Assembly (NCBI RefSeq): GCF_025755255.1 | Contig: NZ_JALIEB010000005.1 | Location: 124,001 to 188,000 of the forward strand | Length of the DNA stretch: 64,000 nt | Source: Roseobacter sinensis | GTDB taxonomy: Bacteria; Pseudomonadota; Alphaproteobacteria; Rhodobacterales; Rhodobacteraceae | Direction: 5' to 3' | Shown here: piece after piece, positions 10,687-22,212 of the stretch | Numbering within the stretch: the stretch's first letter is position 1 | Layout: each line of letters begins with the position of its first letter | Notes under the pieces: model-generated | The model's database searches: none | The model's input: only the letters and a program-made list of their open reading frames with translations | Told to the model about the DNA's origin: nothing | Program-made: the position numbers and the translations under genes

Positions 10687-11727
10687 ATGACGATCTCACG
10701 CAAGACATTTCTCGGCATGGCCGCTGCGGCGGCGCTGGCCGTGGGCTTCGGCGCGGCCCCGGCGGTTGCGCAGGATGTGACGCTGCGCCTGCACCAGTTC
10801 CTGCCACCGCAAGCCAATGTGCCAAAGCTGGTCCTGGATGTCTGGGCGGACAATGTCGAGGAAGACAGCGGCGGCCGGATCAAGGTCGAGCGGTATCCCT
10901 CGATGCAGCTGGGCGGCAAGCCGCCCGAGCTGATGGATCAGGCGATCGACGGTGTGGCCGATATCGTCTGGACGGTGGTGGGCTACACGCCCGGGCGGTT
11001 CCCCTCGACCGAGGTTTTCGAGCTTCCGTTCATGATGACGAATGCCCGTGCCGCTTCGCGCGCCTATTGGGAAATGTTCGAAAAGCACATGAAGGACACG
11101 GAGTTCAAGGATGTGCACATCCTGGGCACCTGGGTGCACGGGCCGGGCCTGATCCACGCCAACAAGGAGATCCGCACGCCCGCGGACATGGAAGGCCTCA
11201 AGATCCGTGGCGGCTCGCGGCTGGCCAATGCGCTGCTTGAGAAGATGGGCGCAACACCGGTTGGCATGCCGGTCCCGGCGGTGCCTGAAGGCCTGTCCAA
11301 GGGCGTGATCGACGGGACCACGATCCCCTGGGAAGTGACCGCGGCGCTGAAAATTCCTGAACTGGTCGACAATCACACCGAGTTCAGCGGCAATGCACTC
11401 TATGTGCTGACCTTCGTTCTGGCGATGAACAAGGATCGCTACGAGAGCCTGCCGGACGATCTGAAGAAGGTCATCGATGACAACTCCGGCCTTGAATTCT
11501 CGGTCTTTGCGGGCGGCACGCAAGCAGACAGTGACGGACCGGCACGCGAGGCGGCCGCGGCGCGGGGCAACAACATCGTGACCTTGACCGAGGAAGAGAC
11601 CGCCGAATGGCGCGCCGTGTCGCAACCGATCTACGACGAATGGGTGGCCGAGATGAACGAGCGGGGCATCGATGGACAGGCCCTGATCGACGAAGCCCGC
11701 ATGCTGATCGACAAATACACTGAGTAA
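10687..11727 (+). CDS. dctP: TRAP transporter substrate-binding protein DctP
   Basis: The 346-residue periplasmic protein catches an organic acid for the TRAP transporter encoded next to it. A Sec signal peptide (about 1-25, ending AVAQD) is followed by the DctP fold, with the conserved GLKIRGGSRLANALLEKMGA-type stretch at mid-length and VPEGLSKGVIDGT. The start ATG follows AGGGAGGA at about 10672-10679; an upstream in-frame ATG at 10588 would place 33 extra residues before the signal peptide and is rejected. It lies upstream of benzoate-CoA ligase and the box genes, so its ligand is probably benzoate or a related aromatic acid; this is inference from position. Confidence 0.92.
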   Translation: MTISRKTFLGMAAAAALAVGFGAAPAVAQDVTLRLHQFLPPQANVPKLVLDVWADNVEEDSGGRIKVERYPSMQLGGKPPELMDQAIDGVADIVWTVVGYTPGRFPSTEVFELPFMMTNARAASRAYWEMFEKHMKDTEFKDVHILGTWVHGPGLIHANKEIRTPADMEGLKIRGGSRLANALLEKMGATPVGMPVPAVPEGLSKGVIDGTTIPWEVTAALKIPELVDNHTEFSGNALYVLTFVLAMNKDRYESLPDDLKKVIDDNSGLEFSVFAGGTQADSDGPAREAAAARGNNIVTLTEEETAEWRAVSQPIYDEWVAEMNERGIDGQALIDEARMLIDKYTE

Positions 11728-11739
11728 CAGCACCAAACA

Positions 11740-11773
11740 GGGCCCGCCGCACCACAAGCGGCGGGCCCTTTTT
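11740..11773 (+). terminator. Hairpin between dctP and dctQ
   Basis: The arms GGGCCCGCCGC (11740-11750) and GCGGCGGGCCC (11758-11768) pair perfectly and are followed by TTTTT. It has the form of an intrinsic terminator. Placed between binding protein and permeases, it likely attenuates transcription so that DctP is made in excess, and may also protect the dctP message end. Confidence 0.85.
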
Positions 11774-11791
11774 CCTGAAACGGAGCGTCTC

Positions 11792-12292
11792 ATGCATCAG
11801 GCCGTGCATCTGCTTGCCCGCACCACCGCGATCATCGGCGGGCTGGTTCTTGTGGGGCTGGTGATCCTGACCACGGTCTCGACCGCGGGGCGTGAGATCG
11901 GGATCGGTGAGGTCAACGGCAGCTACGAGATACTCGAAGCCGGCGTCGCCTTCGCGATCTTCTCCTTCTTTCCGATTTGCCAGTTGCACGGCGCCCATGC
12001 GACAGTGGACATCTTCACGTCGCAACTGCCCAAGCGCATCAACCGTGCGATCATCGCCTTCTGGGAGGTGGTCCTGACGGCGGCGCTGATCCTGATCAGC
12101 TGGCGGCTCTACGAGGGAATGCAGCGCTATATCGGCAATGGCGAAACCACGTTCTTCCTGCAGTTTCCGGTCTGGTGGGGCTATGCGTTCAGCTTTGCCG
12201 CCTGCGTGGTCACCTGCCTTGTCGCGGTCTACTGCGCGGTCATGCGGGTGCGCGAGTGCCTGTCCGGCCGTGCCCTGTTGCCCACCGCCTAG
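11792..12292 (+). CDS. dctQ: TRAP transporter small permease DctQ
   Basis: The 166-residue protein has four predicted membrane helices, the layout of the DctQ small subunit of TRAP transporters. The conserved region GVAFAIFSFFPICQLHGAHATVDIF lies between helices 2 and 3. It forms a membrane complex with DctM, encoded immediately downstream, and takes substrate from DctP. It begins 64 bases after dctP, beyond a terminator-like hairpin, and is followed by dctM after 9 bases. Confidence 0.88.
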   Translation: MHQAVHLLARTTAIIGGLVLVGLVILTTVSTAGREIGIGEVNGSYEILEAGVAFAIFSFFPICQLHGAHATVDIFTSQLPKRINRAIIAFWEVVLTAALILISWRLYEGMQRYIGNGETTFFLQFPVWWGYAFSFAACVVTCLVAVYCAVMRVRECLSGRALLPTA

Positions 12293-12301
12293 GGACTGAT
12301 C

Positions 12302-13621
12302 GTGAGCAACCTCGAGCTAGGTTTTCTATCCTTCCCGATCCTGCTGCTCATGGTGTTCCTGCGCGCGCCGATTGGCCTCGCGATGCTGCTCTGCGGGTTT
12401 GCGGGCTGGTACTTCGCGATGGGCGGCAACCCGAATGTGCTCCTCAACAAGCTGAAATCCGAGACCTACACGCAGTTCTCCAGCTATTCGCTGTCGATCA
12501 TCCCGATGTTTCTGCTCATGGGGCAGTTCGCGACGCTCTCGGGTATGTCGTCGGCACTCTTCAAGGCGGCCGAGAGCTTTCTCGGGCATCGCCGTGGTGG
12601 TGTCGCCATGGCCTCCGTAGGCGCCTGTGCGGGCTTCGGCGCGATCTGCGGCTCGTCGCTGGCCACGGCTGCCACCATGTCGAAGGTCGCCTTGCCGGAG
12701 CTGCGGCGCTATGGCTATTCGGGCGGGTTTTCGACCGCCACCCTGGCAGCGGGCGGCACGCTTGGCATTCTGATCCCGCCCTCCGTCATCCTTGTGATCT
12801 ACGCGATCCTGACCGAACAGAACATTGCCAAGCTGTTCCTCGCCGCTTTCATTCCGGGGATCATGGCGGCCTTGGGATACATGCTGACGATCTCGATCTA
12901 CGTGCGGCTCTACCCCAAATCCGCCGGTACCCGCCCGGCCCAGCCGATGTCCGAACGCTGGGCCGCGCTGGCCGGGTGCTGGCCGGTGCTGCTGATCTTC
13001 GGCCTCGTTGTGGGCGGCATCTACCTGGGCTGGTTCACACCCACCGAAGGCTCGGCCATCGGAGCGGCGGGCACCGGGCTGGTGGCGCTGCTTTCGGGCA
13101 GCCTCAATTGGGCGGTGTTCCGCGACAGCCTGTTCGGGACCGCCCGCACCACGGCGATGATCTTCTTCATCGTCTTGGGTGCGAGCTTCTACAACAGCTT
13201 CCTCGCGCTCTCGGGCGTGCCGCAATTCATGGCGGACTGGGTGCTGACCCAGGGCTTCAGCCCGTGGCTGGTTCTGTCGGTGATCCTGATCTTCTACCTG
13301 ATCTTCGGCTGCCTGATGGACAGCCTCTCGATGATCCTGCTGACCGTGCCGATCTTCTTTCCGGTGATCTCGGCGATGGATTTCGGCATGTCGCCCGAGC
13401 ATCTGGCGATCTGGTTCGGCATCCTTGTGCTGATCGTGGTCGAAGTCGGGCTGATCACGCCGCCTGTGGGCATGAATCTCTTCATCATCAATGCAATGGA
13501 CCGCGAGACACCGATGACCGAGACCTACAAGGCGGTCCTGTTCTTCGTCGGCTCCGACATTGTCCGGGTCATCATTCTCGTCATGTTCCCGGCCATCACC
13601 CTCTTCCTGCTGCCCGCCTGA
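12302..13621 (+). CDS. dctM: TRAP transporter large permease DctM
   Basis: This 439-residue multi-helix protein is the ion-coupled translocation channel of the TRAP transporter. It has the DctM signature segments: GACAGFGAICGSSLATAATM near 103-122, GGTLGILIPPS near 153-163, and a C-terminal LITPPVGMNLFII stretch near 383-395. The GTG start at 12302 sits 9 bases after the dctQ stop. Downstream come two TGCAC-type palindromes and then the benzoate-CoA ligase gene in the same direction, which ties this transporter to the aromatic pathway. Confidence 0.93.
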   Translation: MSNLELGFLSFPILLLMVFLRAPIGLAMLLCGFAGWYFAMGGNPNVLLNKLKSETYTQFSSYSLSIIPMFLLMGQFATLSGMSSALFKAAESFLGHRRGGVAMASVGACAGFGAICGSSLATAATMSKVALPELRRYGYSGGFSTATLAAGGTLGILIPPSVILVIYAILTEQNIAKLFLAAFIPGIMAALGYMLTISIYVRLYPKSAGTRPAQPMSERWAALAGCWPVLLIFGLVVGGIYLGWFTPTEGSAIGAAGTGLVALLSGSLNWAVFRDSLFGTARTTAMIFFIVLGASFYNSFLALSGVPQFMADWVLTQGFSPWLVLSVILIFYLIFGCLMDSLSMILLTVPIFFPVISAMDFGMSPEHLAIWFGILVLIVVEVGLITPPVGMNLFIINAMDRETPMTETYKAVLFFVGSDIVRVIILVMFPAITLFLLPA

Positions 13622-13724: not shown

Positions 13725-15269
13725 GTGATCAGCACCTCGATGAACGCGGCCAGCTACTTTGTCGATCGTCACCTCGACGAAGGGCGGGGTGAAAGGGTTG
13801 CCTATCGCGAGGCGGGGTCTGGGCGCGAGATGACGTTTCAGCAGCTGGCCGAGGACGCGGGGCAATGGGCCGGTGCGCTGATCCGTGCAGGCCTTCGGCC
13901 GGAAGAACGCGTTGCCATGCTCATGCTGGATACGCTGGAGTTTCCATCTGTGTTTTTCGGCGCCCTGAAGTGCGGGGTCGTTCCGATCCCGATCAACACC
14001 TTGCTCGCAGCGCCGATCTACGCCGCCATACTGCAAGACAGTCGGGCCGTGACACTTGTGGTCTCGGCCGAGCTTTACGACGCGGTGAAGCCAGCCCTCG
14101 CCGAAGCGCCCCACCTGCGCAGGGTCGTTGTTATCGGTGGCGCGGCCCCGGACGGAACCCAGAGCCATACGCAGTTCCTGTCTGGTGCAGAGAGGCATCC
14201 GACTGCGCCGGTCTCATCCGATGACATTGCCTTCTGGCTATATTCTTCGGGGTCGACCGGCCAGCCGAAAGGTGTCCAGCATGTGCATTCCAGCATGCAG
14301 GCGACAGCGGACACCTATGGCGCCCATGTGCTCGGCCTGACGGAGGACGACACAGTTTTCTCCGCAGCCAAGCTCTTCTTTGCCTACGGGCTTGGTAATG
14401 CGATGACCTTCCCGCTGGCCGTGGGCGCCAAGACGATCCTCTTCGCAGGGCGTCCGACCCCGAGTGATATGATCGCCACGATCGAGGCCGAACAGCCGAC
14501 GCTCTTCGGCGGGGTGCCGACGCTCTATGCCGCGATGGTGGCCCAGATGGATAGGACGGGCGCCCCGAGGGCGCCGTTGCGGCGGTGCATCTCAGCGGGT
14601 GAGGCGCTGCCGGAAGATGTGGGCAGGCGCTGGCAGGCGCTCACCGGCGTGGATATCCTCGACGGTGTAGGCTCCACCGAGATGCTGCACATCTTCCTCA
14701 GCAACAGCGCGGACAATCTGGCCTATGGCACCTCCGGTACGCCGGTGCCGGGATATGACGTGCGCCTCGTTGATGATGCGGGCCGGGATGTGGCCGACAA
14801 CGAGATCGGTGAGATGCTGGTCAATGGCGCCTCGGCCGCCGCAGGCTACTGGAACCAGCGGGAGAAGTCGCGCCGGACCTTCGAAGGCGTATGGACGCGC
14901 ACGGGCGACAAATACGAACGCCGCCCCGATGGGCGGTACGTCTATTGCGGGCGGACGGACGACATGTTCAAGGTCTCGGGCATCTGGGTCTCGCCCTTCG
15001 AAGTCGAACAGGCGCTGGCCAGCCACCCGGCGGTTCTGGAAGCGGCTGTTGTCTCTGCCCGGGATGACGCCGGGCTCGAGAAGCCGAAGGCCTTCATCGT
15101 GCTCGAGACTGACGCGCCGCCCGACCTCGAGGCGCAGCTGATCACACACGTGAAGTCACGGGTCGGTAAGTGGAAGTATCCGCGCTGGATCGAGATCGTG
15201 GACGACCTGCCCAAGACCGCAACCGGCAAGATCCAGCGGTTCAAGCTGCGGGAGATGGAGGCGTCGTGA
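13725..15269 (+). CDS. Benzoate-CoA ligase family protein
   Basis: This 514-residue adenylate-forming enzyme activates benzoate, or a close aromatic acid, to its CoA thioester using ATP. The AMP-binding P-loop YSSGSTGQPKG lies near residues 173-183. The A8 region GRTDDMFKVSGIWVSP is near 408-423, and the C-terminal catalytic lysine is in LPKTATGKIQR. The N-terminal part (NAASYFVDRHLDEGRG) is like known benzoate-CoA ligases. It starts with GTG at 13725 after GGGAGGGA, behind two candidate operators, and its stop overlaps the next start (GTGA). The box genes downstream act on benzoyl-CoA, which supports the substrate. Confidence 0.9.
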   Translation: MISTSMNAASYFVDRHLDEGRGERVAYREAGSGREMTFQQLAEDAGQWAGALIRAGLRPEERVAMLMLDTLEFPSVFFGALKCGVVPIPINTLLAAPIYAAILQDSRAVTLVVSAELYDAVKPALAEAPHLRRVVVIGGAAPDGTQSHTQFLSGAERHPTAPVSSDDIAFWLYSSGSTGQPKGVQHVHSSMQATADTYGAHVLGLTEDDTVFSAAKLFFAYGLGNAMTFPLAVGAKTILFAGRPTPSDMIATIEAEQPTLFGGVPTLYAAMVAQMDRTGAPRAPLRRCISAGEALPEDVGRRWQALTGVDILDGVGSTEMLHIFLSNSADNLAYGTSGTPVPGYDVRLVDDAGRDVADNEIGEMLVNGASAAAGYWNQREKSRRTFEGVWTRTGDKYERRPDGRYVYCGRTDDMFKVSGIWVSPFEVEQALASHPAVLEAAVVSARDDAGLEKPKAFIVLETDAPPDLEAQLITHVKSRVGKWKYPRWIEIVDDLPKTATGKIQRFKLREMEAS

Positions 15270-16087: not shown

Positions 16088-16535
16088 GCTGTCGGCCGAT
16101 CTGCGCCCTCCGCATGCCTACGTCCCCGGTCGGACGGCGCGCCACCCGGAGGGCTGGTTCGATCACATCAAGGCCTCTGCCCAAGACACTGCAACCCCGG
16201 ACGCGCTGCGGCACACCGCGGCCTTCCGCACCGGTCTGGCTTATCTCGGAGCCGGATACTTCTGGGAGTGCCACGAGGTGCTAGAGGCGATCTGGCTCCG
16301 AACGCCTGACCCAAGTCCGGAACGTGAGCTTGTGCAGGCGCTCATCCAACTGGCCAACGCGCGGCTGAAGCTTGCGATGCGCCGCCCAAAGGCGGCAGGG
16401 CGGCTCTGCGACATGAGCGCGGCGCATCTGAGCAGGTGCGCAGGCCAAGCGACGGTTCTCGGCGTCGGAATCGTCGATCTTCAAGCCGAAGTCGATCAGA
16501 CCCGATATGACCTAAATATGCACTATAAATTATAA
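16071..16535 (+). CDS. DUF309 domain-containing protein
   Basis: This 154-residue protein has the DUF309 core: an N-terminal FRTGLAYLGAGYFWECHEVLE stretch (split here as GYFWECHEVLE near 63-73) followed by ELVQALIQLANARLKL. DUF309 proteins are small helical proteins of unknown function with a conserved His-Glu pair. The ATG at 16071 overlaps the hydrolase stop by 17 bases, so it belongs to the same transcript. Its last codons contain a TGCACTAT element that may be a control site for the next genes. A role in benzoate breakdown is suggested only by position. Confidence 0.82.
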   Translation: MLRWPELSADLRPPHAYVPGRTARHPEGWFDHIKASAQDTATPDALRHTAAFRTGLAYLGAGYFWECHEVLEAIWLRTPDPSPERELVQALIQLANARLKLAMRRPKAAGRLCDMSAAHLSRCAGQATVLGVGIVDLQAEVDQTRYDLNMHYKL

Positions 16536-16647: not shown

Positions 16648-18306
16648 GTGAGCAAGCGCATAGATTTCCAAGTTGATCCGGCCGGGATGAAGCACTGGAC
16701 CGTCGAGCATGACGGGCCAGTGGCTTATCTTTACATGGATGTGGACGAAGACGCCGGGCTCTTCGAGGGGTATCAACTCAAACTGAATTCATACGATCTC
16801 GGCGTCGACATCGAACTGGCGGATGTGGTGCAGCGCATGCGCTTCGAACACCCGGAGGTGAAGGTCGTCGTTCTGACGTCGGCCAAGGACAAGGTGTTCT
16901 GCGCCGGTGCGAACATCCGCATGTTGGGCAGCGCGAGCCATGCCCACAAGGTGAACTTCTGCAAGTTCACCAATGAGACGCGGAACACCCTGGAGGCGGC
17001 GCTGGAAGACAGCGGCCAGAACTACATCTGTGCGGTGCGTGGCGCCTGCGCGGGCGGCGGCTATGAGCTTGCGCTTGCGTGCAACCACATCATGCTGACG
17101 GATGACAGCACCTCCTCGGTGGCGCTGCCCGAGGTGCCGTTGCTTGCAGTGCTGCCCGGCACCGGCGGGCTGACGCGCGTGACCGACAAGCGCAAGGTGC
17201 GCCGCGATCTGGCCGATGTCTTCTGCTCGGTCGAGGAGGGGGTGAAGGGCAAGCGTGCGCAGGAGTGGCGGCTGGTCGACGAGGTGATCCCCAATTCACA
17301 GTTCGATGCGGGCGTGCGCGCCCGTGCCGAGGCCTTTGCTGCCACCTCTCGCAAGCCCGATGTCACGCAGGGGATTGAGCTCAAGCCCTTGCAGCGGCAG
17401 TTCTTGGCCGATGCGGTGATCTATTCGACGATCGATGTGGCGCTGGACCGGCCGGGGCGCCGCGCGGTGATTACCATCAAGGGGCCGGAGACGGATGCGC
17501 CCGCCGATGTGGCGGCTCTCACGGCCGAGGGCTCGGAGACCTGGATGCTGCGGTGCGCGCGCGAATTGGACGATGCCATTCTGCATCTGAGGACCAATGA
17601 AGATGCGCTGGGGCTGATCGAATTCCAGACCGCGGGCGATCCGGCGCGCGTTGTCGCCCATGAGGCGCTGCTGCTTGCCCACGCGGATCATTGGCTGGCG
17701 AATGAGGTACTGTGTCTGTGGAAGCGCGTGCTCAAGCGGGTCGACATGACCTCGCGCAGTCTCGTCGCAATGGTAGAGCATGGCTCCTGCTACGCGGGCG
17801 TTCTGGCCGAGCTGCTCTGGTCGGTGGACCGCAGCTACATGATGTTGGAACCTTTCGAGGAGGACGACCGGCCTCTGGCCTCTGTTCAGCTGACCGACGC
17901 GAACTTCGGACAGTATCGCATGGGCAATGGTTTGAGCCGGCTCGAGACCCGTTTTCTGGGTGCGCCCGATGACATCGCCGGTTTACGCGCGCAGATCGGA
18001 ACGCCGCTGGACGCCGCCAAGGCGGAGACGCTGGGGCTTGTCACCTACGCCTATGACGACATCGACTGGGAGGATGAAATCCGCTTGTTCCGTGAGGAAC
18101 GGGCGAGTTTCTCGCCGGATGCAATGACCGGGATGGAGGCCAACCTGCGCTTTGCCGGCCCGGAGACGATGGAGACGCGCATTTTCGGGCGTCTGACGGC
18201 CTGGCAGAACTGGATCTTCCAGCGGCCCAACGCGGTGGGCCCCGAGGGTGCGCTGCAACGGTACGGAACAGGAGTGCGGGGGGTGTTTGACATGCAACGT
18301 GTCTAG
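16648..18306 (+). CDS. boxC: 2,3-epoxybenzoyl-CoA dihydrolase BoxC
   Basis: BoxC opens the ring of 2,3-epoxybenzoyl-CoA by adding two waters, releasing formate and yielding 3,4-dehydroadipyl-CoA semialdehyde. The 552-residue protein has two crotonase-like halves. The first shows FCAGANIRMLG near residues 88-98 and RGACAGGGYELALACNHI near 131-148; the second shows a GSCYAGVLAELLWSVDRSYMM-type segment near 378-398. The length matches BoxC rather than an ordinary enoyl-CoA hydratase (about 260 residues). It is followed by boxB beyond a palindromic repeat. Confidence 0.95.
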   Translation: MSKRIDFQVDPAGMKHWTVEHDGPVAYLYMDVDEDAGLFEGYQLKLNSYDLGVDIELADVVQRMRFEHPEVKVVVLTSAKDKVFCAGANIRMLGSASHAHKVNFCKFTNETRNTLEAALEDSGQNYICAVRGACAGGGYELALACNHIMLTDDSTSSVALPEVPLLAVLPGTGGLTRVTDKRKVRRDLADVFCSVEEGVKGKRAQEWRLVDEVIPNSQFDAGVRARAEAFAATSRKPDVTQGIELKPLQRQFLADAVIYSTIDVALDRPGRRAVITIKGPETDAPADVAALTAEGSETWMLRCARELDDAILHLRTNEDALGLIEFQTAGDPARVVAHEALLLAHADHWLANEVLCLWKRVLKRVDMTSRSLVAMVEHGSCYAGVLAELLWSVDRSYMMLEPFEEDDRPLASVQLTDANFGQYRMGNGLSRLETRFLGAPDDIAGLRAQIGTPLDAAKAETLGLVTYAYDDIDWEDEIRLFREERASFSPDAMTGMEANLRFAGPETMETRIFGRLTAWQNWIFQRPNAVGPEGALQRYGTGVRGVFDMQRV

Positions 18307-18405: not shown

Positions 18406-19857
18406 ATGCTCGATCTGATCAACGTGAGCTACGACAGCCAAATTCCCAACAACGTCGGCCTGAGTTCCGACAAGAAGGTGCTGAAGGCGCTTGAGAAATG
18501 GCACCCGGGCTACATCAACTGGTGGAATGACCTCATTCCGCAGAACTTCCAGGAGAGCATGGTCTATCTGCGCACCGCGGTCTCCGTAGACCCGAAAGGC
18601 TGGGCCAAGTTCGACTACGTGAAGATGCCGGAGTATCGATGGGGCGTTCTGCTGGCCCCTGCGGTCGAGGATCGGCGCATTGCCATGGGCGAGCATCTGG
18701 GCGAGCCGGCCTGGCAGGAGGTGCCGGGCGAATACCGCAATATGCTCAAACGCCTGATCGTGATCCAGGGCGACACCGAGCCCGGCTCGGTCGAGCAGCA
18801 GCGGTTTCTCGGGCTCACGGCGCCCTCGCTCTACGACATGCGGAACCTCTTCCAGGTCAATGTTGAGGAAGGCCGACACCTCTGGGCGATGGTCTACCTA
18901 CTTCAGAAATACTTCGGGCGTGATGGGCGGGAGGAGGCGGATGATCTGCTGGTGCGCTCCTCGGGCTCGGAGGAGGCGCCGCGCATGCTTGGCGCCTTCA
19001 ACGAAGAGACGCCCGATTGGCTCAGCTTCTTCATGTTCACCTATTTCACCGATCGCGACGGCAAAATGCAGCTGGAGAGCCTCGCGCAATCGGGCTTCGA
19101 CCCGCTGAGCCGCACCTGCCGCTTCATGCTGACGGAGGAGGCGCATCACATGTTCGTCGGCGAGACCGGTGTCGGCCGCACCATTCAGGCGACGCTGGAG
19201 GCGATGACCAAGGCCGGCATCACAGACCCCACCGATATCAACAAGATCCGCGATCTTGGCGTGATCGACCTGCCCACGATCCAGAAGAAGCTCAACCTGC
19301 ACTACACGCTCAGCCTTGATCTCTTCGGGCAGGAGGTCTCGACCAACGCCGCCAATGCCTTCAACGCCGGCATCAAGGGGCGCTACATGGAGCAGCGGAT
19401 CGATGACGATCACAAGCTGCAAAACGACACATATCCGGTGACGTCGATCAAGGACGGCAAGATCCTGACGGAGGATGTGCCTGCGCTTACCGCCATCAAC
19501 ATGCGGCTGCGCGACGACTATGTGCGGGATGCCGCGGGCGGTATCGGGCGTTGGAACAAGATGATCGCCAAGGCGGGTATCGAGTATGAATTGAAACTGC
19601 CACACGAGGGCTTTCACCGTCAGATCGGCGTGTTTTCGACCGTCGCGGTGGATCCCGATGGGAACATCGTCTCCGCCGAGGAGTGGGCCAAACGGCGGGA
19701 GGACTGGCTGCCCACCAAGGCGGATGGGGATTTCATCCAGTCGCTGATGGTGCCCTGCTACGAGCCTGGAGAGTACGCCTCATGGATCGCGCCGCCGAAG
19801 GTCGGCATCGACAACAAGCCGGGTGATTTCGAATACGTGAAACTGCACATGGCTTGA
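18406..19857 (+). CDS. boxB: Benzoyl-CoA 2,3-epoxidase subunit BoxB
   Basis: BoxB is the diiron oxygenase that forms the 2,3-epoxide of benzoyl-CoA with O2 and electrons from BoxA. The 483-residue length is typical. Candidate iron ligands are visible in EEGRHLW (near 154-160) and EEAHHMF (near 244-250), plus further glutamates in the helical core. The ATG follows CAGGAGGA. It stands between boxC and a small cysteine peptide plus boxA, all in the same direction, so the four form one operon part. Confidence 0.95.
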   Translation: MLDLINVSYDSQIPNNVGLSSDKKVLKALEKWHPGYINWWNDLIPQNFQESMVYLRTAVSVDPKGWAKFDYVKMPEYRWGVLLAPAVEDRRIAMGEHLGEPAWQEVPGEYRNMLKRLIVIQGDTEPGSVEQQRFLGLTAPSLYDMRNLFQVNVEEGRHLWAMVYLLQKYFGRDGREEADDLLVRSSGSEEAPRMLGAFNEETPDWLSFFMFTYFTDRDGKMQLESLAQSGFDPLSRTCRFMLTEEAHHMFVGETGVGRTIQATLEAMTKAGITDPTDINKIRDLGVIDLPTIQKKLNLHYTLSLDLFGQEVSTNAANAFNAGIKGRYMEQRIDDDHKLQNDTYPVTSIKDGKILTEDVPALTAINMRLRDDYVRDAAGGIGRWNKMIAKAGIEYELKLPHEGFHRQIGVFSTVAVDPDGNIVSAEEWAKRREDWLPTKADGDFIQSLMVPCYEPGEYASWIAPPKVGIDNKPGDFEYVKLHMA

Positions 19858-19942
19858 CCTGAATCAAAGCGCGCGGCGGTCGGGCCAGTTTCACTGGCCC
19901 GCATCACCGAACCCATCCCGATCACCGAGAGGAGACAGGACC

Positions 19943-20086
19943 ATGAAGACGCAACCCGCAAAACCCCCCGCTTTCCCCAGCCTGAACTGCATCGGCTGTA
20001 CCGATTGCAAAGGCTTGTGCCGTGACATCGTGGATCTCGCCGTATTGCCCGAGACGTTTCTGAGACGCGCCACCGCCAGCCCATGA
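19943..20086 (+). CDS. 47-residue cysteine-motif protein before BoxA
   Basis: An ATG at 19943 with GGAGACAGGA before it opens a 47-codon frame whose stop overlaps the boxA start (ATGA). The peptide has a compact cysteine cluster, CIGCTDCKGLC (C-x2-C-x2-C-x3-C, residues 16-26), and a C-terminal helix-like half. The spacing is like an iron-sulfur or zinc knuckle and similar to the clusters in BoxA. Translational coupling to boxA suggests a role in electron transfer, cluster loading or assembly of the BoxAB epoxidase. I do not recognise a named family. Confidence 0.75.
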   Translation: MKTQPAKPPAFPSLNCIGCTDCKGLCRDIVDLAVLPETFLRRATASP

Positions 20087-21279
20087 CGACACCTGTCAAA
20101 CAGCATCTGATCGATCCGGAAATCTGCATCCGCTGCTACACCTGCGAGATGACCTGCCCTATCGGGGCGATCCAGCATGACGACACCAATGTCGTGGTCG
20201 ATCCGGACATCTGCAATTTCTGCATGGACTGCATCCCGGTCTGCCCCACGGGCTCCATCGACGAATGGCGCGTGGTCGAGACACCCTACACGCTGGAGCA
20301 GCAGTACGCCTTCGATGAGCTGCCCGAGCAAGACGACATCGCGCTGCCGGAAGACGCCGGCGGCGAGGAGATCGAGGCGCATGACGATGTCGTCGTAGCG
20401 CTGTTGGCAGAGGCGCACAAGGGCACGGGCGGCAAGGCCCGGGCACCTGCGACGGCCTCCAAACCCACCATCAACCTCTATTCTCTGTCGAACCCGGCCA
20501 AAGCGACGGTGCAGGGCAACTACCGCCTGACCGATGCGGCGGGCGACAACGACGTGCGGCATATCATTCTCGATCTCGGCCGGGTGCCGTTTCCCGTCCT
20601 CGAGGGCCAGAGCATCGGCATTGTTCCACCGGGTGTCGATGCGGAGGGCAAGGCGCATCTTCCGCGGCTCTACTCGGTCTCGAGCCCGCGCGATGGCGAG
20701 CGGCCCGGCTTCAACAATGTCTCGCTGACGGTCAAGCGCGAGAAGATGGGGCTCTGCTCGAACTACGTCTGCGATCTTGCCAAAGGCGATGAGGTTCAGG
20801 TCACGGGACCCTTCGGGTCAACCTTCCTGCTCCCGTCCGACCCGGAGGCCCATCTTCTGATGATCTGTACCGGGACCGGCTCGGCCCCGTTCCGCGGGTT
20901 CACGATGCGGCGTCAGCGCGAAACGCCCGGTGCGCGGGACAGTCTGACATTGGTCTTCGGTGCCCGCAGCGCGCGCGACCTGCCCTACTTCGGTCCGCTC
21001 AAGAAGGTGCCGGATCAGTTCATGCGCAAAACCTTCGCCTTCAGCCGCGCCGAGGATCAGCCCCGCCAATACGTGCAGGACAAGCTGCGCGAAGAGGCCG
21101 ATACGGTGGGCGCGCTTCTCAAAACAGAAAAGGCGCATGTCTACATCTGCGGGCTGAAGGCGATGGAAACCGGCGTCGAAGAGGCCCTTGGCGAGATCGC
21201 CGCTTCGGCTGGGCAGGACTGGGCAGAGCTGCGCAACAGGATGCGCGAAGAAGGCCGCTATCATGTCGAAACCTACTGA
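20083..21279 (+). CDS. boxA: Benzoyl-CoA 2,3-epoxidase reductase subunit BoxA
   Basis: BoxA passes electrons from NADPH to BoxB. The 398-residue protein begins with two [4Fe-4S] ferredoxin motifs (Cys 15, 18, 21, 25 and 44, 47, 50, 54). A linker of about 80 residues then leads to a ferredoxin-NADP reductase half, with the FAD-binding RLYSVSSPRD (near 193-202) and the NADP-binding MICTGTGSAPFRGF (near 262-275). It ends in RYHVETY, like plant-type reductases. The start overlaps the stop of the cysteine peptide. The next gene, boxR, starts 39 bases after the stop. Confidence 0.95.
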   Translation: MTTPVKQHLIDPEICIRCYTCEMTCPIGAIQHDDTNVVVDPDICNFCMDCIPVCPTGSIDEWRVVETPYTLEQQYAFDELPEQDDIALPEDAGGEEIEAHDDVVVALLAEAHKGTGGKARAPATASKPTINLYSLSNPAKATVQGNYRLTDAAGDNDVRHIILDLGRVPFPVLEGQSIGIVPPGVDAEGKAHLPRLYSVSSPRDGERPGFNNVSLTVKREKMGLCSNYVCDLAKGDEVQVTGPFGSTFLLPSDPEAHLLMICTGTGSAPFRGFTMRRQRETPGARDSLTLVFGARSARDLPYFGPLKKVPDQFMRKTFAFSRAEDQPRQYVQDKLREEADTVGALLKTEKAHVYICGLKAMETGVEEALGEIAASAGQDWAELRNRMREEGRYHVETY

Positions 21280-21318: not shown

Positions 21319-22212
21319 ATGACCGAGACACCGCTGGCTGCTGCTGATCGATCTCGGCAACTGAAGGAGCGCGTGGCGGCCCGTGTGCGCAGCCAGCGCA
21401 AGGCGCAAAAGCTGCCCCGGCGCGTCCTGTCCGACAGGTCCGGGGTCTCGCCGCGTTATCTGGCACAATTGGAGGCGGGAGCGGGCAATATCTCCATCGC
21501 CTTGCTGCACCGCATCGCGGTCGCTCTCGACGTGCCGATCGAAAGTTTTCTGTCGGAGGACGCACCCGAGGATCGCGAGATCCAGCGGATCGCGTCCCTC
21601 TACCGCGACGCGCCGCAGGAGGTTCAGCGCGAGGTGCGCAGGCTGCTCGCCCCGCAAAACCCGGCCCTTCTGCGGGCCGGTCGCATCTGTCTGATCGGTC
21701 TGCGCGGTGCGGGCAAATCAACCCTGGGCAAGCTGGCCAGCGAGGCCTTGGGCCTGCCCTTCGTCGAGCTCAACCGCGAGATCGAACAGGAGACGGGCAT
21801 GCCGCTCGCCGAGGTGATGGCGTTCTACGGTCAGGATGGGTATCGCGCGCTCGAAGCCGATGCGGTGTCGCGCGTGGTGGCAACCCACGACCGGCTGATC
21901 CTCGCCGTCGCCGGCGGGCTTGTGACTGAGGAGCCGACCTATCAACAGGTGTTGGAACGATTTCATACGATCTGGCTGCGGACCTCTGCCGCCGAGCATA
22001 TGCGGCGGGTCCGCGCGCAGGGCGATCTGCGCCCCATGCGCGGCAATCCCGCCGCGATGGAACAGCTTCAGTCGCTGCTGGAGGCGCGCAGTCCGCTCTA
22101 CGAGCGCGCGGACGCCGACATCGACACGTCGAACCGTACGGTCAAGGGCTCGCTCAACGATCTCATCAAGCTGATTGCCGCCAGAGGGTTCCTCAACGGG
22201 GCAGTGGGGTGA
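21319..22212 (+). CDS. boxR: BoxR transcriptional regulator (HTH plus shikimate kinase-like domain)
   Basis: The 297-residue protein joins an XRE-type helix-turn-helix (about 15-80, with LSDRSGVSPRYLAQLEAG) to a C-terminal shikimate kinase-like domain (about 120-290) with the P-loop GLRGAGKST (127-135). This architecture defines BzdR/BoxR repressors, whose kinase-like domain senses benzoyl-CoA rather than phosphorylating shikimate. It is the likely regulator of the cluster and of its TGCAC-type palindromes. The ATG lies within TTGCATGAC, so the start itself carries a TGCA element. The stop overlaps the next gene (GTGA). Confidence 0.93.
   Translation: MTETPLAAADRSRQLKERVAARVRSQRKAQKLPRRVLSDRSGVSPRYLAQLEAGAGNISIALLHRIAVALDVPIESFLSEDAPEDREIQRIASLYRDAPQEVQREVRRLLAPQNPALLRAGRICLIGLRGAGKSTLGKLASEALGLPFVELNREIEQETGMPLAEVMAFYGQDGYRALEADAVSRVVATHDRLILAVAGGLVTEEPTYQQVLERFHTIWLRTSAAEHMRRVRAQGDLRPMRGNPAAMEQLQSLLEARSPLYERADADIDTSNRTVKGSLNDLIKLIAARGFLNGAVG

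Follow-up and report, generated by a model that had tools for sequence, protein, structure and literature searches.

A four-cysteine small protein gene between boxB and boxA in Rhodobacteraceae, present also in genomes without boxB

Gene content of the locus

The window, a stretch of 64,000 nucleotides from Roseobacter sinensis (contig NZ_JALIEB010000005.1, positions 124,001 to 188,000), carries genes of benzoyl-CoA epoxidation downstream of a transporter and a ligase, with a short frame between boxB and boxA. The features considered here, all on the forward strand, are as follows:

10687..13621, +, TRAP transporter genes DctP, DctQ and DctM, 5' of the ligase gene (PF03480, PF04290, PF06808)
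13725..15269, +, benzoate-CoA ligase family protein (TIGR02262)
16101..16535, +, DUF309 protein, start approximate (PF03745), kept with the peptide in two boxB-less genomes of the window's genus
16648..18306, +, boxC, 2,3-epoxybenzoyl-CoA dihydrolase (TIGR03222, over the NCBIfam cut-off)
18406..19857, +, boxB, benzoyl-CoA 2,3-epoxidase subunit BoxB (TIGR03225, 900 bits, cut-off 499)
19881..19901, +, hairpin CGGGCCAGT-TTC-ACTGGCCCG, between boxB and the peptide gene
19930..19934, +, AGGAG, ribosome-binding-like, 8 nt 5' of the peptide ATG
19943..20086 (stop included), +, four-cysteine small protein of 47 aa, read as a frame and a member of a homologous family
19988..20020, +, loop codons C-x2-C-x2-C-x3-C (C16 to C26), aligned by the family profile to PsaC [4Fe-4S] loops
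20083..20086, +, ATGA overlap (4 bases) of the peptide stop and the boxA start
20083..21279, +, boxA (TIGR03224, 539 bits, cut-off 459), with two complete CxxCxxCxxxCP motifs
21319..22212, +, BoxR-type regulator with HTH and shikimate-kinase domains (PRK08154, HTH_3, SKI)

The peptide frame begins with ATG, runs for 47 codons to a TGA stop and has cysteines at residues 16, 19, 22 and 26; its coordinates, its length, the C-x2-C-x2-C-x3-C spacing and the overlap of its stop with the boxA start, as given in a sequence-only reading of this DNA, were confirmed in the window sequence. The same ATGA junction was found in 37 of the 54 homologous cases in which boxA follows, and most homologues have, as judged by eye, a similar purine-rich stretch 5' of their start.

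The spacer from boxB to the peptide start measures 22-207 nt (median 81, n=58). Its hairpin was stronger than all 30 of its own shuffles in 43 of 57 spacers, compared with 1 of 71 pieces taken inside boxA, while 6 of 15 box gaps without the peptide folded better than all their own shuffles. The hairpin in homologous spacers is strong and its sequence is not conserved. A search of the window for terminator-like sites found none, and the hairpin could adjust the amount of boxB message relative to the message downstream.

Conservation and constraint of the peptide gene

Searching 394 genomes of the window's family with the single peptide sequence gave a match in 66 (E <= 0.01), two of which (G303 and G340) were missed by the profile, look non-homologous and are probably false; a peptide profile searched against the same genomes was positive in 67 at E <= 1e-4, gaining G009, G017 and G143. 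The regions following boxB were read in 80 of the 82 boxB genomes (window included; G102 and G344, both lacking a profile copy, were left out) and contained a CxxCxxCxxxC peptide in 58, a CxxxCxxCxxxC variant in three, a frameshifted copy in one (G009), a degenerate copy in one (G109, a coupled frame with displaced cysteines) and nothing recognisable in 17. The proposal that the frame is a genuine conserved gene, usually located in the boxB-boxA gap within this family, is thus borne out by its presence in the same place in 58 of 80 regions.

Because the 58 gap peptides had been picked using the motif as a filter, two motif-free tests were added. In each gap of 150 nt or more, the longest open frame was taken that has 40 or more codons and a stop overlapping the boxA start; this frame contained CxxCxxCxxxC in 42 of 49 cases, and the seven exceptions comprised five gaps with the peptide in another frame, the frameshifted copy and the degenerate copy. 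In addition, loci retrieved with a cysteine-free seed pattern and tblastn had CxGCxxCxGxC in 51 of 51 named cases. The cysteines are also "invariant" in alignment A1, though by construction, since its 49 members (41 of the 58 gap peptides and eight copies without adjacent box genes) were hand-picked and all chosen with the motif.

Synonymous changes exceeded nonsynonymous changes per site, roughly 2-7 fold, in every group compared (pN/pS 0.14 to 0.46). Expressed as dN/dS, in mean pairwise Nei-Gojobori values that ignore the tree, the estimates were 0.14 for seven Ruegeria box copies, 0.22 for 11 other box-cluster copies, 0.10 for four Mameliella second copies and 0.15 for 11 Leisingera-like copies in genomes without boxB, the nonsynonymous share in the last group being 37% against 74% expected without selection. 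The frame therefore encodes a genuine small protein, conserved and constrained at the codon level, which occurs also without box genes.

Relation to known protein families

The shortest copy read has 45 residues and the gap set ranges from 47 to 70, with starts chosen by the analyst. Members share a layout of a variable N-terminal part, the four-cysteine loop and a conserved stretch predicted as helix. Compared with PsaC, the family profile aligned with the [4Fe-4S] loops (best whole-sequence E 5.5e-5), ferredoxins matching more weakly, which supports a loop of the [4Fe-4S] ferredoxin type.

Regarding established family models, the window peptide stayed below the gathering thresholds of Pfam, with 15.8 bits for Fer4_21 (cut-off 35) and 13.9 bits for Fer4_2 (cut-off 24.5), and Fer4 matches of the remaining 48 A1 members were weak (best E 0.00054, Fer4_21). 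In NCBIfam the window peptide reached no cut-off, its three best scores lying between 11 and 12.8 bits where at least 93 would be needed, and the best E-value of the other A1 members was 0.0012 among the 25 of 38 families listed. Assignment to a known family was consequently rejected, the peptide and the 49 A1 members having given just weak ferredoxin-type matches in Pfam and NCBIfam.

The peptide has the CxxCxxCxxxC loop in common with the 2[4Fe-4S] ferredoxins and PsaC (Fer4 families); it differs from them in having one loop rather than two, in lacking a conserved proline after the fourth cysteine and in the helix that follows the loop. The pair of motifs that marks Fer4 proteins, each with a proline directly after its last cysteine, is accordingly not present, the window peptide having a single motif, and a proline after the fourth cysteine occurs in only two of the 58 gap peptides and two of the 51 named loci. 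As the protein corresponds to half of a two-cluster ferredoxin with a rare Cys-Pro, zinc is a possible ligand. Two AlphaFold models were of low confidence (mean pLDDT 63.8 and 63.9, pTM 0.25 and 0.32), the better of which reads helix - loop - helix. Taken from its sequence, the product is most likely an accessory protein predicted to carry a single [4Fe-4S] cluster, zinc being the main alternative.

BoxA (TIGR03224) shares the operon with the peptide and bears two such loops; in contrast to the peptide, it has FAD and NAD domains, and the peptide is encoded by a separate gene that occurs without BoxA too. PaaD, MmoD and DmpK are small accessory proteins of diiron oxygenases, and the peptide gene resembles theirs in genomic setting, being small and next to the gene of such an enzyme; it differs in that it is missing from some box clusters and persists without boxB.

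In the open-access literature searched, no description of such a gene was found, which is no proof of absence. Protein lengths in the excerpt of Table 1 of PMC3305630 that was examined are 93 aa or more and the peptide gene is not among them, and the portions of text consulted from PMC9873259 and PMC12442348 make no mention of it. We rate small ferredoxin-loop proteins as a known kind and the genomic role seen here as new.

Distribution relative to boxB

A boxB gene scoring over the cut-off was detected in 82 of the 394 family genomes. The peptide profile and boxB occurred together in 59 genomes, the peptide alone in eight and boxB alone in 23, with neither in 304 (Fisher p about 5e-42, uncorrected for relatedness). 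Of the 17 box regions with nothing recognisable, which include one-contig genomes (G045 and G055), 15 have boxA adjoining boxB, and a genome-wide profile search gave no match elsewhere in these 17 genomes. In a tree built from 71 BoxA rows, of which 54 have the peptide and 17 do not (the frameshifted G009 and the degenerate G109 being scored as without), the presence label changed at least 11 times, nine changes being forced by well-supported branches; the label is nonetheless clustered, only one of 500 shuffles being as low.

Outside the window's family, five clusters in which boxB and boxA are neighbours, one from Mycetohabitans and four from other genomes, showed no peptide in the gap; in four further boxB loci boxA was out of reach. 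A class-wide profile search of 337 genomes, some of them of the same family, returned the peptide's own genome and four weak matches with E between 3.6e-5 and 8.3e-4. Two of these fall in long frames (417 and 499 codons) and two in short ones (45 codons, and 52 codons with an internal stop); all four are taken as ferredoxin-motif matches. In a plasmid collection the window peptide had one weak match (E 0.3), within an annotated NADH:flavin oxidoreductase, and a 58-aa family member used as query had none. The 51 named homologues belong to Rhodobacteraceae, from which NCBI now separates Roseobacteraceae, except for three titled just Alphaproteobacteria bacterium. Among the genomes searched, the peptide family was thus found in Rhodobacteraceae only.

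Loss of the frame or of its cysteines from orthologous boxB-boxA gaps, on which the sequence-only reading had made its proposal depend, was seen in a minority of gaps only. Being present in most box regions and missing in 17 of 80, the peptide gene is therefore a true gene of the box operon and not a fixed part of BoxAB.

Peptide copies in genomes without boxB

Searching for boxB in 28 peptide genomes gave no match passing E 1e-20 in 24, equivalent to 21 distinct genomes after removal of three duplicates; the other four are Mameliella genomes with boxB elsewhere. Exchanging G143, whose copy is frameshifted, for G404 leaves 21 distinct genomes with an intact copy and no boxB, several of which are drafts in which boxB may have been missed in individual cases.

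In nine genomes drawn from the window's genus the peptide was found in all nine, while boxB was not found in two (G266 and G404), whose loci retained the TRAP genes, DUF309 and the peptide; ligase, hydrolase, boxC, boxB, boxA, regulator and 3HCDH genes were all not found there. The DUF309 gene is retained in these two loci (L115 and L230) and is absent beside some other peptide copies. This pair had a pN/pS of 0.46, compared with 0.34 for box copies of the same genus, and box loss may thus be recent in part of the boxB-less genomes. The locus of Sedimentitalea arenosa, which has no boxB, aligns with that of S. xiamensis, which has a full box cluster, across the peptide, 84 bases 5' and 43 bases 3' of it, and contains a boxA remnant of 14 codons followed by a stop; to judge from this alignment, it is a scar of box loss in which the peptide was kept.

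A recurrent arrangement without boxB, seen in Leisingera, S. arenosa and others, is DctPQM - peptide - AlkZ-like gene; in Pseudodonghicola xiamenensis and Cribrihabitans marinus the peptide lies beside the AlkZ-like gene alone, and a 4HBT thioesterase gene is located 3' of the peptide in Leisingera sp. ANG1 (L148), the sole such locus that was read closely. TRAP genes were in the locus for 15 of the 20 distinct intact boxB-less copies examined, and also in L230. The second copy in Mameliella has the order (from L184) DctPQM - dehydrogenase (named by eye) - acyl-CoA synthetase - peptide - BoxR-type gene - 3HCDH, and a box-cluster copy is also present in three of the four genomes, the three that were readable. 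At L182-L185 and L118 a second peptide copy lies near TRAP genes, directly 5' of a BoxR-type regulator and 3HCDH. Near the peptide in G217 and G332 none of the query genes was found. Aromatic-acid uptake and CoA metabolism are a common theme of these contexts, but the TRAP/AlkZ neighbourhood is possibly ancestral synteny.

Proposed role of the peptide

Because the peptide is kept in some box-less genomes and missing in some box genomes, it probably assists the aromatic-acid operon at large and is not a fixed part of the enzyme. With moderate confidence we regard it as a small ferredoxin-loop protein, probably [4Fe-4S], that is an accessory of Rhodobacteraceae aromatic-acid operons and not of BoxAB alone. 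A protein of this kind, with its CxGCxxCxGxC loop followed by a helix, would most likely bind a single [4Fe-4S] cluster, possibly in dimeric form, and serve as a redox or iron-sulfur accessory in aromatic-acid catabolism; in box clusters, translational coupling would link its synthesis to that of BoxA. The likely target beyond BoxAB is a function that these operons have in common, namely uptake, the CoA-thioester steps or the control of these, or else it lies in another part of the cell. The strong association with box genes speaks against this wider role in that it fits a box function too.

Regarding that function, the sequence-only reading had suggested that the peptide could be a third component of BoxAB or help in its assembly. 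A required role of this kind is not supported: the peptide is missing from 17 of 80 box regions and from the five clusters outside the family, so it does not occur wherever boxB and boxA do, and it occurs in genomes in which boxB was not detected. Nor is its role bound to BoxAB, given its persistence under codon constraint where no boxB was found and a canonical copy following boxB in G390, a genome with no BoxA match over the cut-off. An obligate BoxAB subunit was rejected on the grounds of the 17 regions and the copies without boxB. A dedicated BoxAB accessory, serving as a third electron-transfer component or in assembly of the BoxB diiron centre or the BoxA clusters, with the box-less copies as lingering or re-used remnants, would agree with the profile match in 59 of 82 boxB genomes compared with 8 of 312 others, with the ATGA-coupled position between boxB and boxA and with the ferredoxin-like loop; yet the empty box regions, the mixed presence and absence over the BoxA tree, the peptide-free clusters outside the family, the codon constraint where boxB is lacking and the G390 copy all count against it, and we consider it somewhat unlikely.

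Alternatively, the peptide could be a zinc-binding or redox-sensing regulator of the operon and not an electron carrier, with four cysteines that would respond to iron, oxygen or thiol state and with a transcription factor or transporter as its target. The four Mameliella copies that lie directly 5' of a BoxR-type regulator and after an acyl-CoA synthetase gene (order from L184) are consistent with such a role, as are the TRAP genes at most boxB-less copies; however, the peptide gave no match to a DNA-binding domain, the 12-kb loci of the Leisingera-like copies contain no BoxR-type gene and the TRAP neighbourhood is possibly mere ancestral synteny, which makes this alternative unlikely. The ATGA overlap and the strong hairpin 5' of the gene would suit a leader peptide whose translation controls boxA as an attenuator or coupling device, its protein product being irrelevant, but a dN/dS of about 0.15 in copies that no boxA follows marks constraint on the protein itself and renders this very improbable. 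That the frame is spurious, short as it is and over no family-model cut-off in the window, has practically no probability left, being contradicted by its conservation in homologues, in motif-free frames and in the cysteine-free seed loci.

The gene adds to a well-studied pathway a small, conserved protein that bears a metal-binding motif and lies outside the family models searched. Related genomes provide a two-way deletion series (box and peptide, box alone, peptide alone), and a need of BoxAB can therefore be tested directly against a need of the wider operon.

Box clusters without an adjacent boxA

Three clusters (G302, G139 and G240; L199, L200 and L201) consist of boxB, the CxxxCxxCxxxC variant peptide and a flavodoxin-like gene, with no BoxA over the cut-off. 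The variant is weakly related to the family, with a profile E of 0.003 for G302, and all three genomes miss the threshold of 1e-4. Two further clusters (G378 and G056; L202 and L203) have boxB and the flavodoxin-like gene with neither BoxA over the cut-off nor the peptide. The flavodoxin-like gene of G240, the one copy scanned, matched Flavodoxin_1, and its location in the place of boxA is possibly a sign of a changed electron donor to BoxB, so that these clusters offer a second lead on electron supply to this enzyme. A bolder picture, which we offer as doubtful, would have the peptide as a Rhodobacteraceae-specific, stand-alone "half-ferredoxin" of about 50 residues that serves aromatic-acid catabolism in general as a redox or iron switch and stays through losses of the box genes and, as the variant, through the change from BoxA to flavodoxin, while the proteins that supply BoxB with electrons change. 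In two other genomes (G080 and G213; L207 and L208), boxB and the peptide are located on one contig and boxA, ligase and hydrolase genes on another.
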